The translations under genes were made by a program, and so were the position numbers. From positions 1 to 26,042 of IMG/VR virus record IMGVR_UViG_3300009163_000156: 26,042 bases of DNA. One strand, written 5' to 3'. The notes beneath the pieces were generated by a model. That model saw only the letters and a program-made list of their open reading frames with translations. It had not been told where the DNA came from and did no database searches. Below are positions 12,948 through 26,042 of this stretch, in pieces. How positions within the stretch are numbered: position 1 is the stretch's first letter; the number at the start of each line of letters is the position of its first letter. The DNA comes from a virus.

Positions 12948-13994
12948 ATGGCAGTCAATCAGTACGACGTTGACCCAGAGGGCGACGCCAAAATTGCTGA
13001 GTTAGCCGCCGATCTCGGCAGTCAGAACGCAGCAGCACTTCGACTGAACATCAGCCGGGCGGCGGTGCAGAACGCCTGCCGCCGTCATGTGGCGCGGACA
13101 GCCGCGGTTCTGTCGCTCGACACGCCCAAGGCAGACCCGTTGCCGCCAGCCGATCTGCCGTTTGCAGAGCGGCTGGCGCTGATGAAGAAGCGCAACGCGC
13201 TGCGGATCGCACACGCGCAGGCGCAAGCCTGGCAGACCGTGCGGATACCGATCAAAGGCCCATATGCCATCTGCTGGTTCGGCGATCCGCACCTTGACGA
13301 CCCGTTCTGCGACTTGGTCGGCTTCGAGCGTGACGCGCGCATCTGCGCCGAAACCGAAGGGCTGTACGGCGCCAACGGCGGTGATTCTATCAACAACTGG
13401 GTGGGCAGGCTTGAACGCCTGTACGGCGAACAATCCGCCACGGTATCAGAGGGCTGGGAACTGGTCGAGTGGGCGCTGAAGCATCTAGGCGTCAACTGGC
13501 TGCTGTGGATTCTGGGCAACCACGACACATGGAACTACGGCAAGCGCATCTTTGACGGCATGAACACCGAACGCATCCTGATGCGCGACTGGGACGCCAA
13601 GTTGCAACTGGCGTCGCCGTGCGGCGGTATCACCCGCGTCTGGGCGCGGCACGACTTTAAGGGCCACTCAATGTACAACGAGTTGCACGGCTTGAAGCGG
13701 GCGGCGATGATCGACGAACACGCCGACATCTACGCTGCGTTCCACAGGCACACGTTCGGCACCGGCCAGGGCGAGTTTGCCGGCGGGCGGCGCTACACGC
13801 TGGTGCGCGCCAAGGGTTACAAGGAGAGCGACGACTACGCGCTCAAGGGCCAGTTTGCAGAACAGCGCAGCGGACAGTCAGTGGTCACGGTCATAACCCC
13901 GCGCAACGGCGCTGCCCCGGCGGTCAGCGTGTTCGAGGACGTGCAAGAAGGCGCGGACTTCCTGACGTACAAGCGCAGAAAGGCTGGGTTGTGA
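12948..13994 (+). CDS. HTH plus calcineurin-like metallophosphoesterase
   Basis: 348 aa. Residues about 13-48 form a helix-turn-helix (AAALRLNISRAAVQNACRRH). From about 100 a metallophosphoesterase domain shows its full motif set: GDPHLD with Asp113 and His115, GGDSINN with Asp146 and Asn149, GNHD at 190-193, His residues in ARHDFKGHS (235-240), and FHRHTFG with His266 and His268 in place of GHTH. These residues bind two metals in phosphodiesterases and phosphatases, including Mre11-type nucleases. The HTH suggests DNA as a binding partner or substrate. Its place among late genes, just before the lysis cassette, is odd for a replication nuclease, so a role in packaging, DNA maturation or host takeover is open. 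The DNA target and reaction are unknown. Confidence 0.8.
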   Translation: MAVNQYDVDPEGDAKIAELAADLGSQNAAALRLNISRAAVQNACRRHVARTAAVLSLDTPKADPLPPADLPFAERLALMKKRNALRIAHAQAQAWQTVRIPIKGPYAICWFGDPHLDDPFCDLVGFERDARICAETEGLYGANGGDSINNWVGRLERLYGEQSATVSEGWELVEWALKHLGVNWLLWILGNHDTWNYGKRIFDGMNTERILMRDWDAKLQLASPCGGITRVWARHDFKGHSMYNELHGLKRAAMIDEHADIYAAFHRHTFGTGQGEFAGGRRYTLVRAKGYKESDDYALKGQFAEQRSGQSVVTVITPRNGAAPAVSVFEDVQEGADFLTYKRRKAGL

Positions 13995-16972: not shown

Positions 16973-19345
16973 TCAACCGCGCTGGTTTGGGGTGCGCTGT
17001 TGATGAATCCCTACCACCTTAGCCCCGGTGGTATCAATGTTTTCCACCATCCGGCGAAGGTCGGATTTGGTATGAACTCTGGCAATCTCCGGTGCTGCGA
17101 AGATATGCCGCTTGGTGTGGAAGTCAGCCGACCCCAGACGCCCGCAGTCCGTCCAACCGGCTTCCTTGAAGGCGTGCAGCAGTGCAGCCTGTGGCACTTT
17201 GACGCCCGCCGGAACCTTACCTTCTGTGACCAAAAGATCACACAGCTTGTGGAACGGCCCGCCGACAACGCCCGACGCAAACGGCCCGACGCGCAGGCGC
17301 ATCATGTCAACCAGGTAGCTCTCGGCTACACTCATGCCCTGCTCGACCATATTCAGCTTCCACTCGGTCACCGGCGGCGCGGCGGCAGGATTGAACGCCG
17401 ACACGTCCCGCAAGTGCAGCCAAGCCCCGATCTTCTCATAGCCGCCGGCCTTGTACCAATCCCACAGCACCGCCGCTTCGTCGGGGTGCATCCGCGGTGC
17501 GCGTGACCACACGCAGAACCAGCGGCGGTCTTGCGTCGGCAGGGTGATCGGCAGCGGATCGTTCGTGAACGCCACCACCTGAACCCGGTTCAGCATCTCG
17601 TAGGGGTGCAAGCCTTTGCGGTTGATCAGCAGCGTCTCTGGCGGCGCGGCAATGATCGGCTTAAGCTTGTTGGCCAGCGCCCGGCGCTCCTTCGCCTCCG
17701 GTTCGCGCAGTTCGTTCAGGATCAGGACTTCAGCCTCCAGGTTGTACCCCCACTGGCTGTTGATCTCGCCCGTCTCAATGATCGAACGGTTGTGCTGGTG
17801 CTTGCCGCCGATGGCCCACAGGAACGGCGCCCACATGGTGTCCTTGCCGCTGCCTTCGTCGCCGCCGTGCAGCACCGCGTGATTGATCTTCACGTTCGGG
17901 TGCTGAACCTTGTACGCCATCACATCCAAGATATGCTCAAGTTCGGATGTTTCTTCGATCAGACTGCGGCAGTGATCCAGCCACGGCGCGATCTGTACGT
18001 CACTGACTGATGCCGTGGCGCTCATGTCGGGGCGGGCGTTAACCCAGCGGTTGCCGTAGACCAGCCCATCGCGCGCCACCAGCACGTCCTCGCCCGCGGC
18101 GTAGGTGATGCCGGTCAGCGCCTTCGCGCCAAACTCCTGCCGGCGCTCGTCGTAGTAGACCGACGCGGCAACTTGCCGCTTGTTGTTGTGGATCGACCGG
18201 CAATCAACGTGGCGGAACAGCGCGTTGAACACGTTGCGCGGCACTTCTTGGCGCGTCACCATGTCGAAGTAGCTGTCGTCAGACTGCACGTAGGCGAAGC
18301 GGTCGAACCACTCGGTCTTCAACAGCCGCCCGGCTTCCTTGCGCTCGACCTCCTTGACGGTGATGGCGGCCTGATCCGGAAAGGCTTCGGTTGGCGAGAT
18401 TTTCTCGGCCATCAGCCGCATCCGTTCGGCGATCAGTTCGTCCCGCAGCCCTGGCGTCACGGTCGGGCCGCCGTTGTCCGACACCCATTTCAGGAACGTC
18501 GTGCTGGTCAGGTCTTGGCAGTGGCCGTGATAGCAGCAGTAGGAGCGATCCAGCGGCTTGTAGCGGCCCTCGATGCTGCCGTCCGAATGCGCGGCATGGT
18601 TAGGGCAGACCACGCCGCACCAGCCCTCGTTGTTGACCCGCGACAGCACCATGCTGTTGTCCGACAGCCACGCCAGCACGTTGTCTTGGCCGGTGTCGCG
18701 TATCTTGATGCTCTTGATCTCTGCGGTGTCCGATTCGGGCGGCACGACGCCCAGCGCCGCGCACACTTCGTCCAGCGTGTACTCGCGGTCGGGGTGGAAC
18801 TCGACCAACCGCGCCTCAAAGTTGCCCCTGCCCCGCTTCAGGTTGACGCTGCCGGGGATGCGGCAGTTGCGGACGGCGTTGGTCGCGCCTGGGTCGGTGT
18901 AGCCCGCGTCGGCGATGGCGGTGATGGCCGCGGTAAAGTCTGCCTTGGACGGCTGTTCGCTGAAGGCGTAGCCCCACTGGAACGACCCTTCGGACGTTTC
19001 CATGATCCACGTCGGGGCCAGCGGCGGCTCCTTGGACTTGGTGCCGATGTCGTCCAGCATCATGAACAGGACATACTCGACGTTCTCTGACTTGGCAGAT
19101 GGCTTGCCGTCCACGAAGCGGTCAACGATGAACGACCCGGTGTTGACGTACCACGCATCGCCCGGCTTGATGTTGGCCTTGGCCGGCAGGAACGACGGGA
19201 AGGTGGCCTTCGGCGCCCCATCGCCGTGGTAGACCATCTCGCCGCCGACCAGCGTCGGCTTCTGCTTCAGCAACAGCGCCGTCTCGCCCGTCTCGAACGC
19301 CAGCTTGGTGACGTATTCGATAAACTTGATGCGATCCTCACTCAT
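16973..19345 (-). CDS. primase-helicase (RepB-like primase plus SF3-type/DUF5906-like helicase)
   Basis: 790 aa. Residues about 1-200 look like an archaeo-eukaryotic-type (RepB-like) primase: FMMLDDIGTK with Asp98-Asp99, then GSFQWGYAF, then RIPGSVNLKRG. A probable zinc-binding knot follows (WCGVVCPNHAAHSDG and CCYHGHC, 242-276). The C-terminal helicase has Walker A GGDEGSGKDT (494-503), a Walker B-like EVLILNELRE (539-548), sensor FTNDPLP (593-599) and an arginine finger in QDRRWF (605-610). It would open and prime the origin for the polymerase encoded next to it. A purine-rich ribosome binding site (GGAG) sits in the 10-base gap after the polymerase stop. A terminator follows the gene. Fold assignments are from motifs, not a search. 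Confidence 0.85.
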   Translation of the reverse strand: MSEDRIKFIEYVTKLAFETGETALLLKQKPTLVGGEMVYHGDGAPKATFPSFLPAKANIKPGDAWYVNTGSFIVDRFVDGKPSAKSENVEYVLFMMLDDIGTKSKEPPLAPTWIMETSEGSFQWGYAFSEQPSKADFTAAITAIADAGYTDPGATNAVRNCRIPGSVNLKRGRGNFEARLVEFHPDREYTLDEVCAALGVVPPESDTAEIKSIKIRDTGQDNVLAWLSDNSMVLSRVNNEGWCGVVCPNHAAHSDGSIEGRYKPLDRSYCCYHGHCQDLTSTTFLKWVSDNGGPTVTPGLRDELIAERMRLMAEKISPTEAFPDQAAITVKEVERKEAGRLLKTEWFDRFAYVQSDDSYFDMVTRQEVPRNVFNALFRHVDCRSIHNNKRQVAASVYYDERRQEFGAKALTGITYAAGEDVLVARDGLVYGNRWVNARPDMSATASVSDVQIAPWLDHCRSLIEETSELEHILDVMAYKVQHPNVKINHAVLHGGDEGSGKDTMWAPFLWAIGGKHQHNRSIIETGEINSQWGYNLEAEVLILNELREPEAKERRALANKLKPIIAAPPETLLINRKGLHPYEMLNRVQVVAFTNDPLPITLPTQDRRWFCVWSRAPRMHPDEAAVLWDWYKAGGYEKIGAWLHLRDVSAFNPAAAPPVTEWKLNMVEQGMSVAESYLVDMMRLRVGPFASGVVGGPFHKLCDLLVTEGKVPAGVKVPQAALLHAFKEAGWTDCGRLGSADFHTKRHIFAAPEIARVHTKSDLRRMVENIDTTGAKVVGIHQQRTPNQRG

Positions 19346-25441: not shown

Positions 25442-25469
25442 ATCATATCAACGCCAGCGCACCCTGCAA
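25442..25469 (-). promoter_or_regulatory. early promoter for the minus-strand operon
   Basis: On the minus strand, -35 TTGCAG (25469-25464) and -10 TATGAT (25447-25442) are spaced 16 bases. A TGA directly before the -10 makes it an extended -10 promoter (TGnTATGAT). Transcription would start near 25435, about 27 bases upstream of the first early ATG at 25408. The host sigma-70 holoenzyme would be expected to recognise it. The nearest ATTGTC boxes begin about 43 bases upstream of the -35. Confidence 0.68.
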
Positions 25470-25609
25470 CACATTTGTTTGCATCCTTACGCATTTGTAA
25501 TGTTAGCATGGATTGTCACGATTGTCAGATGTTAGGCTGGTTTGAAGGTGGCAATGGCAACGATAAGCGCCTGAATCGCTGGGATAATCAGCCAATTGTC
25601 ATTTAGGTA

Positions 25610-25658
25610 GTGTTAGATTGCTTATCAAAAATAAATATGTGTAGTATATAGCTAACAC
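25610..25658. repeat. inverted repeat bracketing a 35-bp AT-rich segment
   Basis: GTGTTAG (25610-25616) and its inverse complement CTAACAC (25652-25658) flank 35 bases with only 8 G or C. This segment is the most AT-rich of the control region apart from the T-tract, and is a candidate DNA-unwinding element. It also contains TTATCA-N17-TATATA on the plus strand (25622-25650), a weak promoter possibility pointing toward the right end. Confidence 0.5.
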
Positions 25659-25709
25659 AGTAACGCTGGCGCGTGGTGAGCTGCGCCCCCTCGCGTTCTC
25701 AGGTGAACT

Positions 25710-25737
25710 GGAATTGTCGTGCCAAAGTGACAATTCC
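25710..25737. repeat. palindromic ATTGTC operator-like site
   Basis: GGAATTGTC (25710-25718) and GACAATTCC (25729-25737) form a perfect 9-bp inverted repeat with a 10-base spacer. Half-site centres are 19 bp apart, close to two helical turns, as expected for a dimeric helix-turn-helix protein. Both arms contain the ATTGTC box of the surrounding cluster. Confidence 0.6.
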
Positions 25738-25893
25738 GCCCAAAAACCGCCCAAGACGGCCCAAATTGTCACATTGTCACGCAAAGCCGTTCATGTTGGC
25801 CCTCTCTCTCTCGCTTTGCCCAAACCGCCTAACAGCAAAATGGTGCGCGCAAGCTGCGCGCCAGGCGGTTGGATTGTCGGCGCCCAAACCGCC
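25738..25893. repeat. GCCCAA boxes, partly helically phased
   Basis: GCCCAA starts at 25738, 25749, 25759, 25818 and 25882. The first three are 11 and 10 bp apart and are followed immediately by the tandem ATTGTCAC pair. The last two are part of an exact 12-bp repeat GCCCAAACCGCC (25818-25829 and 25882-25893), and a variant with two extra A occurs at 25738-25751. Spacing near 10.5 bp suggests cooperative protein binding on one face of the DNA. Confidence 0.55.
25824..25870. repeat. nested hairpin / cruciform
   Basis: GCGCGCA (25845-25851) and TGCGCGC (25855-25861) form a 7-bp stem with a 3-base loop. Outside it, ACCGCCT (25824-25830) pairs with AGGCGGT (25863-25869), and further pairs follow with one bulge. 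There is no T-run on either side, so it is not a simple terminator. It lies between the two exact 12-bp GCCCAAACCGCC repeats. Confidence 0.5.
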
Positions 25894-25961
25894 CAGCCGG
25901 GGAAATGACCCCGCCAGATTGCTGCGACATGTAGCCGCAGGCTGTGGCCAGGAATGCTGGA

Positions 25962-26035
25962 GGGGGGGGTGGGGGCCGGCGGGCGCGTGGCTGTCACGGG
26001 CACCTCCCGCAAACAATTTTTTATTTTTTATTTTT
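25962..26035. other. G-quadruplex-type G-tract next to phased T-tract
   Basis: G8-T-G5 followed by GG and GGG (25962-25983) can supply four runs of three or more G on the plus strand. About 35 bases later come T6-A-T6-A-T5 (26017-26035), T-tracts repeated every 7 bp. The combination of a G-rich block and an easily melted A/T block is frequent at replication origins and termini. It runs to the window edge, so the rest of the element is unseen. Confidence 0.45.
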
Positions 26036-26042
26036 ACGCAAC

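Follow-up and report, generated by a model that had tools for sequence, protein, structure and literature searches.

Box arrays beside the early promoter of related podophages covary with a predicted wing tip of the primase-helicase and probably mark a replication origin

We analyzed an array of short boxes in a virus DNA of 26,042 nucleotides (IMG/VR record IMGVR_UViG_3300009163_000156, positions 1 to 26,042; this whole stretch is called the window below), a 26-kb fragment of a phage whose relatives have about 37-39 kb. The array lies in the noncoding gap between the early promoter and the small terminase gene (terS). From its conservation beside the early promoter, and from the covariation of its box words with wing-tip residues of the phage primase-helicase, we infer that the gap is a replication origin and that the boxes are iterons, bound by a winged helix at the C-terminus of the primase-helicase through a diversified wing-tip code; we give this reading a probability of roughly three in four.

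The array and its counterparts in relatives

Eight of the 13 ATTGTC copies in the window (9.2 are expected) fall within 25512-25878. Local dinucleotide shuffles of 25505-25900 contained 0.19 copies on average and four at most, and none of 5000 reached eight, so this dense cluster is not due to chance, as the initial annotation (made from the sequence alone) had argued. The exact tandem octamer and the perfect 9-bp palindrome built from the same box, both described there, are present as well, and all ATTGTC boxes are upstream of a putative sigma70-like promoter on the minus strand (Table 1). The gap also holds a second word set, with three copies of TTAGG[CT] and five of TTGGGC. A further small repeat set occupies 25501-25830, with TGTTAG at 25501, 25530, and 25611, and on the minus strand at 25652 and 25829.

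Table 1. Coordinates of the array, its surroundings, and its proposed reader in the window
Feature	Position	Strand	Basis
ATTGTC copies in the gap	25512, 25521, 25595, 25713, 25729(-), 25765, 25773, 25873		
Two ATTGTC boxes (ATTGTCAC, ATTGTCAG)	25512..25528	+	sequence
TTAGGC box, second word set	25532..25537	+	relatives have homologous positions
ATTGTCAT box, then TTTAGGT	25595..25608	+	sequence, relatives
AT-rich centre (TTATCAAAAATAAATATGTGTAGTATATAGCTAAC), putative unwinding element	25620..25660		sequence; low GC also in relatives' gaps
Inverted box pair GGAATTGTC/GACAATTCC	25710..25737		repeat analysis
TTGGGC boxes, starts 25738, 25749, 25759	25738..25764	-	word count
Tandem octamer ATTGTCACATTGTCAC	25765..25780	+	sequence
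Repeat unit GGCGGTTTGGGC	25818..25829	-	repeat analysis
Box cluster GGCGGTTGGATTGTCGGCGCCCAAACCGCC	25864..25893		sequence, repeat analysis
Putative early promoter, TTGCAG-16-TATGAT, sigma70-like	25442..25469	-	read by eye, inference
First early gene, 53 aa	25247..25408	-	open reading frame
Conserved element of 70-90 nt next to terS, with CGTGACAGNCACG palindrome, run of C, and A-rich tract	25956..26042	-	relatives
Primase-helicase, 790 aa, proposed box-binding initiator	16973..19345	-	Pfam, structure
Predicted C-terminal winged-helix domain, residues 673-768	17042..17329	-	AlphaFold2
Predicted wing tip, residues 738-745 (GSADFHTK)	17111..17134	-	covariation at 738 and 740

Related stretches were collected with the 790-aa primase as query (at least 600) and with the conserved element from the right end of the window (119, some sharing a contig). 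Gene maps of 30 longer contigs share one layout: TerL, TerS, the conserved element, the array, the early promoter, and the early genes. Dense repeat arrays were found in 101 distinct gaps; the repeated-word content exceeds that of all 30 shuffles in 98 of them, and that of every other 560-nt stretch of the same locus in 76. In MW202483 and DSL-LC05, which are annotated and stand outside IMG/VR, the strongest repeat windows of the whole genome lie at this gap. A DNA search of the window's gap against named phages gave no match.

The words of the arrays differ by group (TAGGCTAT, TGGGTCAT, GACGTCAT, TAGGTCAT, GTGGACA, GTAGTCA, and ATTGTCA), and in aligned gaps they substitute for each other at the same positions (e.g., CTAGGCTATTT, CTGGGTCATTT, GGGACGTCATTT, and CTAGGCAATTT). 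Within the window's own subclade, AAATTGTCAAATTGTCATGG of some phages stands where others have AAATAGGCGGTTTAGGCTATGG. With words substituting for each other in this way, ATTGTC is one member of an interchangeable set. Judged by sequence, the array is a conserved feature beside the early promoter in more than 100 related podophage records, and ATTGTC is only one of its words; the conservation in close relatives on which the initial annotation had staked its idea thus holds for the array and fails for the word.

The terS-side element is strongly conserved, also between phages with different array words, and could be a late promoter, a terminator, or a packaging (pac) site. Phage DSL-LC05 (OR003940; locus L348) carries a dense TGACCCAGTGGGTCA array beside terS at 33301-34000, a prim-pol with a different C-terminus, and a family B polymerase; MW202483 (locus L200) has a GTTTACA/TGTAAAC array at the homologous gap (27901-28320), a deviating primase wing (GMCFAPELSTKR), and, among its early genes, one with the annotation DnaA-type helix-turn-helix. 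A genome scan for the host returned just three metagenome-bin contigs of uncertain origin; primase relatives (L349 and L351) occur in metagenome bins that carry the labels actinobacterium and Rhodoferax, with the host uncertain. Terminal repeats were found only as short ones, in some contigs. The metallophosphoesterase-like protein at 12948-13994 of the window, which begins with a segment resembling a helix-turn-helix (weak Pfam matches), occurs in some relatives only.

Box words and wing-tip residues

The primase-helicase has a RepB_primase-like N-terminus of the archaeo-eukaryotic primase (AEP) kind, resembling the RepB' and S-2L primases, followed by a DUF5906 helicase and a predicted C-terminal winged helix. 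The helicase region matches the NrS-1 polymerase in sequence (phmmer E 1.8e-5, residues 491-611) and in fold (Foldseek E 6.9e-11); its fold matches include the C-terminal region of the NrS-1 polymerase, poxvirus D5/E5, and PriRep1 with double-stranded DNA (7pds). In the AlphaFold model, the C-terminal elements are helix 673-684, strand 693-695, helices 698-707 and 719-728, strand 732-737, loop 738-745, and strand 746-750, with a predicted local distance difference test score (pLDDT) mostly between 78 and 90. The third helix is near-invariant. The model thus predicts a winged helix in which the covarying residues occupy the wing tip, in the loop between two strands.

For the 55 loci with both gap and primase, variable primase columns were scored by their agreement with array-word similarity, after removal of overall primase identity. 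Among 371 variable primase columns (mean 0.018, standard deviation 0.069), residues 738 (0.473) and 740 (0.416) score highest, and residues 756 and 744 of the same C-terminal domain rank next. Eighteen other protein families were scored as well, and 17 of them have no column above 0.25. The remaining one, DUF3310 (n = 18), gave higher values, its top two at columns 0 and 1 of the unaligned N-terminus and others up to 0.35; we set the top two aside as artefacts of N-terminal extensions.

These scores also bear on other possible readers of the boxes. The boxes could be operators for a regulator of early transcription, similar to stoperator arrays, an option raised in the initial annotation: the array does lie directly upstream of the early promoter, and autoregulation could coexist with an origin. 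However, the 17 families without comparable covariation include the small early proteins, so that no cognate regulator emerged among the families scored, and the arrays span about 550 bp, with an AT-rich centre in their midst and DnaA boxes; we regard operators as a rather improbable explanation. Packaging sites can be built of short repeats, as in the pac site of phage P1, and terS adjoins the array; but the highest TerS column scores 0.139 (n = 50), where the primase attains 0.473, and one would not expect DnaA boxes at a pac site, making pac sites for the small terminase a very unlikely identity for the boxes. It is similarly hard to credit that the covariation reflects only genetic linkage, with gap and primase travelling together by recombination and never in contact. 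The genome's early half does contain both, but the primase neighbours PolI (DNA polymerase I), DUF2815, and DUF2800 have whole-protein partial correlations of at most 0.042, the wing alone stands out within the primase, and in another clade (L027, L040, and L063) the DUF2800-DUF2815-PolI-primase block has the opposite orientation to that in the window, relative to the gap and early control region. Column scores and module inversion thus support neither linkage nor a reader such as TerS or a small early protein.

A tree from primase residues 1-660, which leaves the wing out, requires no fewer than 21 changes of the word and no fewer than 23 of residue 738. Among phylogenetically independent pairs, TAGG and G738 agree in 8-9 against 1 (p ~0.04), and TGGG and A/H738 in 5-6 against 0. 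Grouped by residues 738 and 740, the words are TAGGCTAT (G-T), TGGGTCAT (A/H-V), GACGTCAT (N-K), TAGGTCAT (G-K), GTGGACA (K-R), and GTAGTCAT (M-R). The code, the shape of which was spotted by eye before scoring, most likely pairs G738 with TAGG, A/H738 with TGGG, N738-K740 with GACGTC or GTTGTC, G738-K740 with TAGGTCAT, K738-R740 with GTGGAC, and M738-R740 with GTAGTC. That related phages differ in their box words would then follow from word and wing-tip residues changing together.

Held-out loci, which are relatives of the training set and so only partly independent, mostly follow the code: GRIGSTE or GRVGSTE occurs with TAGGCTAT, GRIASIEY with TGGGTCA, and GRINSKEY with GTTGTCA or GACGTC. 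An element-independent scan, again among relatives and taking the strongest repeat window of each locus, added about 25 K738-R740 loci with GTGGACA; it also paired TGGGTCA with GRVAS[AG]DF, and either GTAGTCA or ATGACTA with GRLM. More tentatively, residues 738 and 740 may set separate parts of the box (G+K giving TAGGTCAT as TAGG plus GTCAT), with lineages repeatedly switching to a private origin word, enzyme and array together, under pressure from origin-targeting competitors, satellites, or co-infecting phages; we consider this possible but clearly less likely than not.

Origin signs and the proposed mechanism

The gaps carry several signs expected of an origin. Their lowest-GC 50 nt lie mid-gap and average 21% GC (75 relatives), and this AT-rich centre divides the array. 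On the terS side most boxes share one orientation (209 forward and 26 reverse), and those on the early side are mixed (104 and 144). In origins of the type found in Staphylococcus aureus pathogenicity islands (SaPIs), repeats flank an AT-rich region in opposite orientations. A perfect DnaA box (TTATCCACA) is present in 25 of the 75 gaps, compared with two occurrences in 781 kb elsewhere.

We propose that the winged helix binds boxes on both sides of the AT-rich centre through wing tip 738-745, and that the bound primase-helicase would load its helicase ring, of superfamily 3 (SF3)/D5 type, at that centre. Host DnaA would assist in many relatives at the adjacent perfect DnaA box, and the phage DNA polymerase would then start primed synthesis. 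This favors the iterons and replication initiator suggested in the initial annotation, where the primase-helicase was already listed as a possible binder; the part that does not stand is ATTGTC as a single word, since the window holds at least two.

Several observations weigh against an origin read by the wing. No perfect DnaA box is present in the window, and minima of the cumulative GC skew are not consistently at the gap. Searched by itself, the C-terminal domain has weak fold matches, many of them to winged helices but with a best E of 0.37, and the P4 origin-binding domain is absent among the best 50. A few held-out top windows consist of unrelated GC-rich words, perhaps coding repeats; the held-out locus L267 (GRIGSKEYMTKR) carries TAGGCAA instead of the expected TAGGTCAT, so that half is as predicted; and the code does not explain a palindromic extra word, GTCATGAC, of which several copies lie beside TAGGC boxes in L041, L051, L052, L123, and L147. 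Finally, the window's own wing (GRLGSADFHTKR) faces an array that mixes ATTGTC with TTAGG and TTGGGC words, and relatives L003 and L006, with a wing identical to the window's, have few ATTGTC copies and TTAGG words at the homologous positions.

Because ATTGTC and TTAGG swap under an identical wing in this subclade, the window's wing may take both words, or one of the two may be read by a different factor. There could accordingly be two readers in the same origin and control region, the wing taking TAGG/TGGG-type words and another phage or host factor reading the ATTGTC (TGACAAT) boxes of the subclade. The coexistence and swapping of the two words speak for this, as does the occurrence of TGACAAT beside the main boxes in other classes. 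On the other side, ATTGTC matches the shared box format, ATTGTC arrays recur in a sister clade with a different wing (GRLASHDYPSKK), and no column of 69b, F10, F28, the 141-aa protein, DUF2800, or DUF2815 splits ATTGTC-rich from ATTGTC-poor relatives, although the loci are few. We therefore think a second reader unlikely.

Comparison with known systems

If an origin read by the primase-helicase wing is the right interpretation, an origin and its initiator can be assigned, from sequence alone, to a widespread and largely uncultured podophage group. It would provide a natural series of about eight initiator/origin specificities, with changes that map to one or two residues of an otherwise conserved domain, which bears on the coupled shift of specificity in an initiator and its multi-copy origin. 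The initial annotation suggested that the recognition system may be undescribed. This is not wholly so, since the same kind of winged helix is found in P4 alpha and SaPI Rep, and the candidate reader can be named as the C-terminal winged helix of a D5/SF3-type primase-helicase. As far as the sequences indicate, what is new is how many words a single phage family uses and how finely they are tracked, by no more than one or two residues of the wing.

In P4 alpha, a winged helix binds origin repeats, and unwinding and priming follow (PMC4234260). The primase-helicase studied here likewise appears to unite a primase, a helicase, and a winged helix at the C-terminus in a single chain, but its primase is AEP-like and that of P4 is of the TOPRIM type, so the likeness is one of plan and not of family membership. 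P4 is a satellite, whereas the phages studied here are P22-like podophages that encode a terminase and a polymerase of their own, and in the account consulted we found no natural series of word specificities reported for P4 alpha. In SaPI Rep and Cch2 of the staphylococcal cassette chromosome mec (SCCmec), the C-terminal domain binds iterons (PMC7581432), and the PriRep1 structure is among the fold matches obtained here. The SaPI origin lies directly downstream of rep, whereas our array is kilobases from the primase gene, beside the early promoter, and its words vary along a residue code that can be traced.

The NrS-1 polymerase, a vent-phage prim-pol with an SF3 helicase that serves a phage replisome, is the best match of the helicase part in both sequence and fold. 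Its 8-nt site is a single-stranded DNA priming site, of which the NrS-1 genome has two copies, and the fold of the enzyme's Tail was described as novel (PMC8718748, PMC7102993). A known parallel for coupled change of iterons and initiator is RepA and the origin of the phage-inducible chromosomal island-like elements (PLEs), where the initiator's DNA-binding domain and the iterons covary as a module under selection by Odn, the origin-directed nuclease of ICP1 (PMC8263062). RepA, however, is a RepA_N initiator without helicase or primase, and its specificity is exchanged by domain swap, whereas the changes seen here are mostly substitutions in the predicted wing tip.
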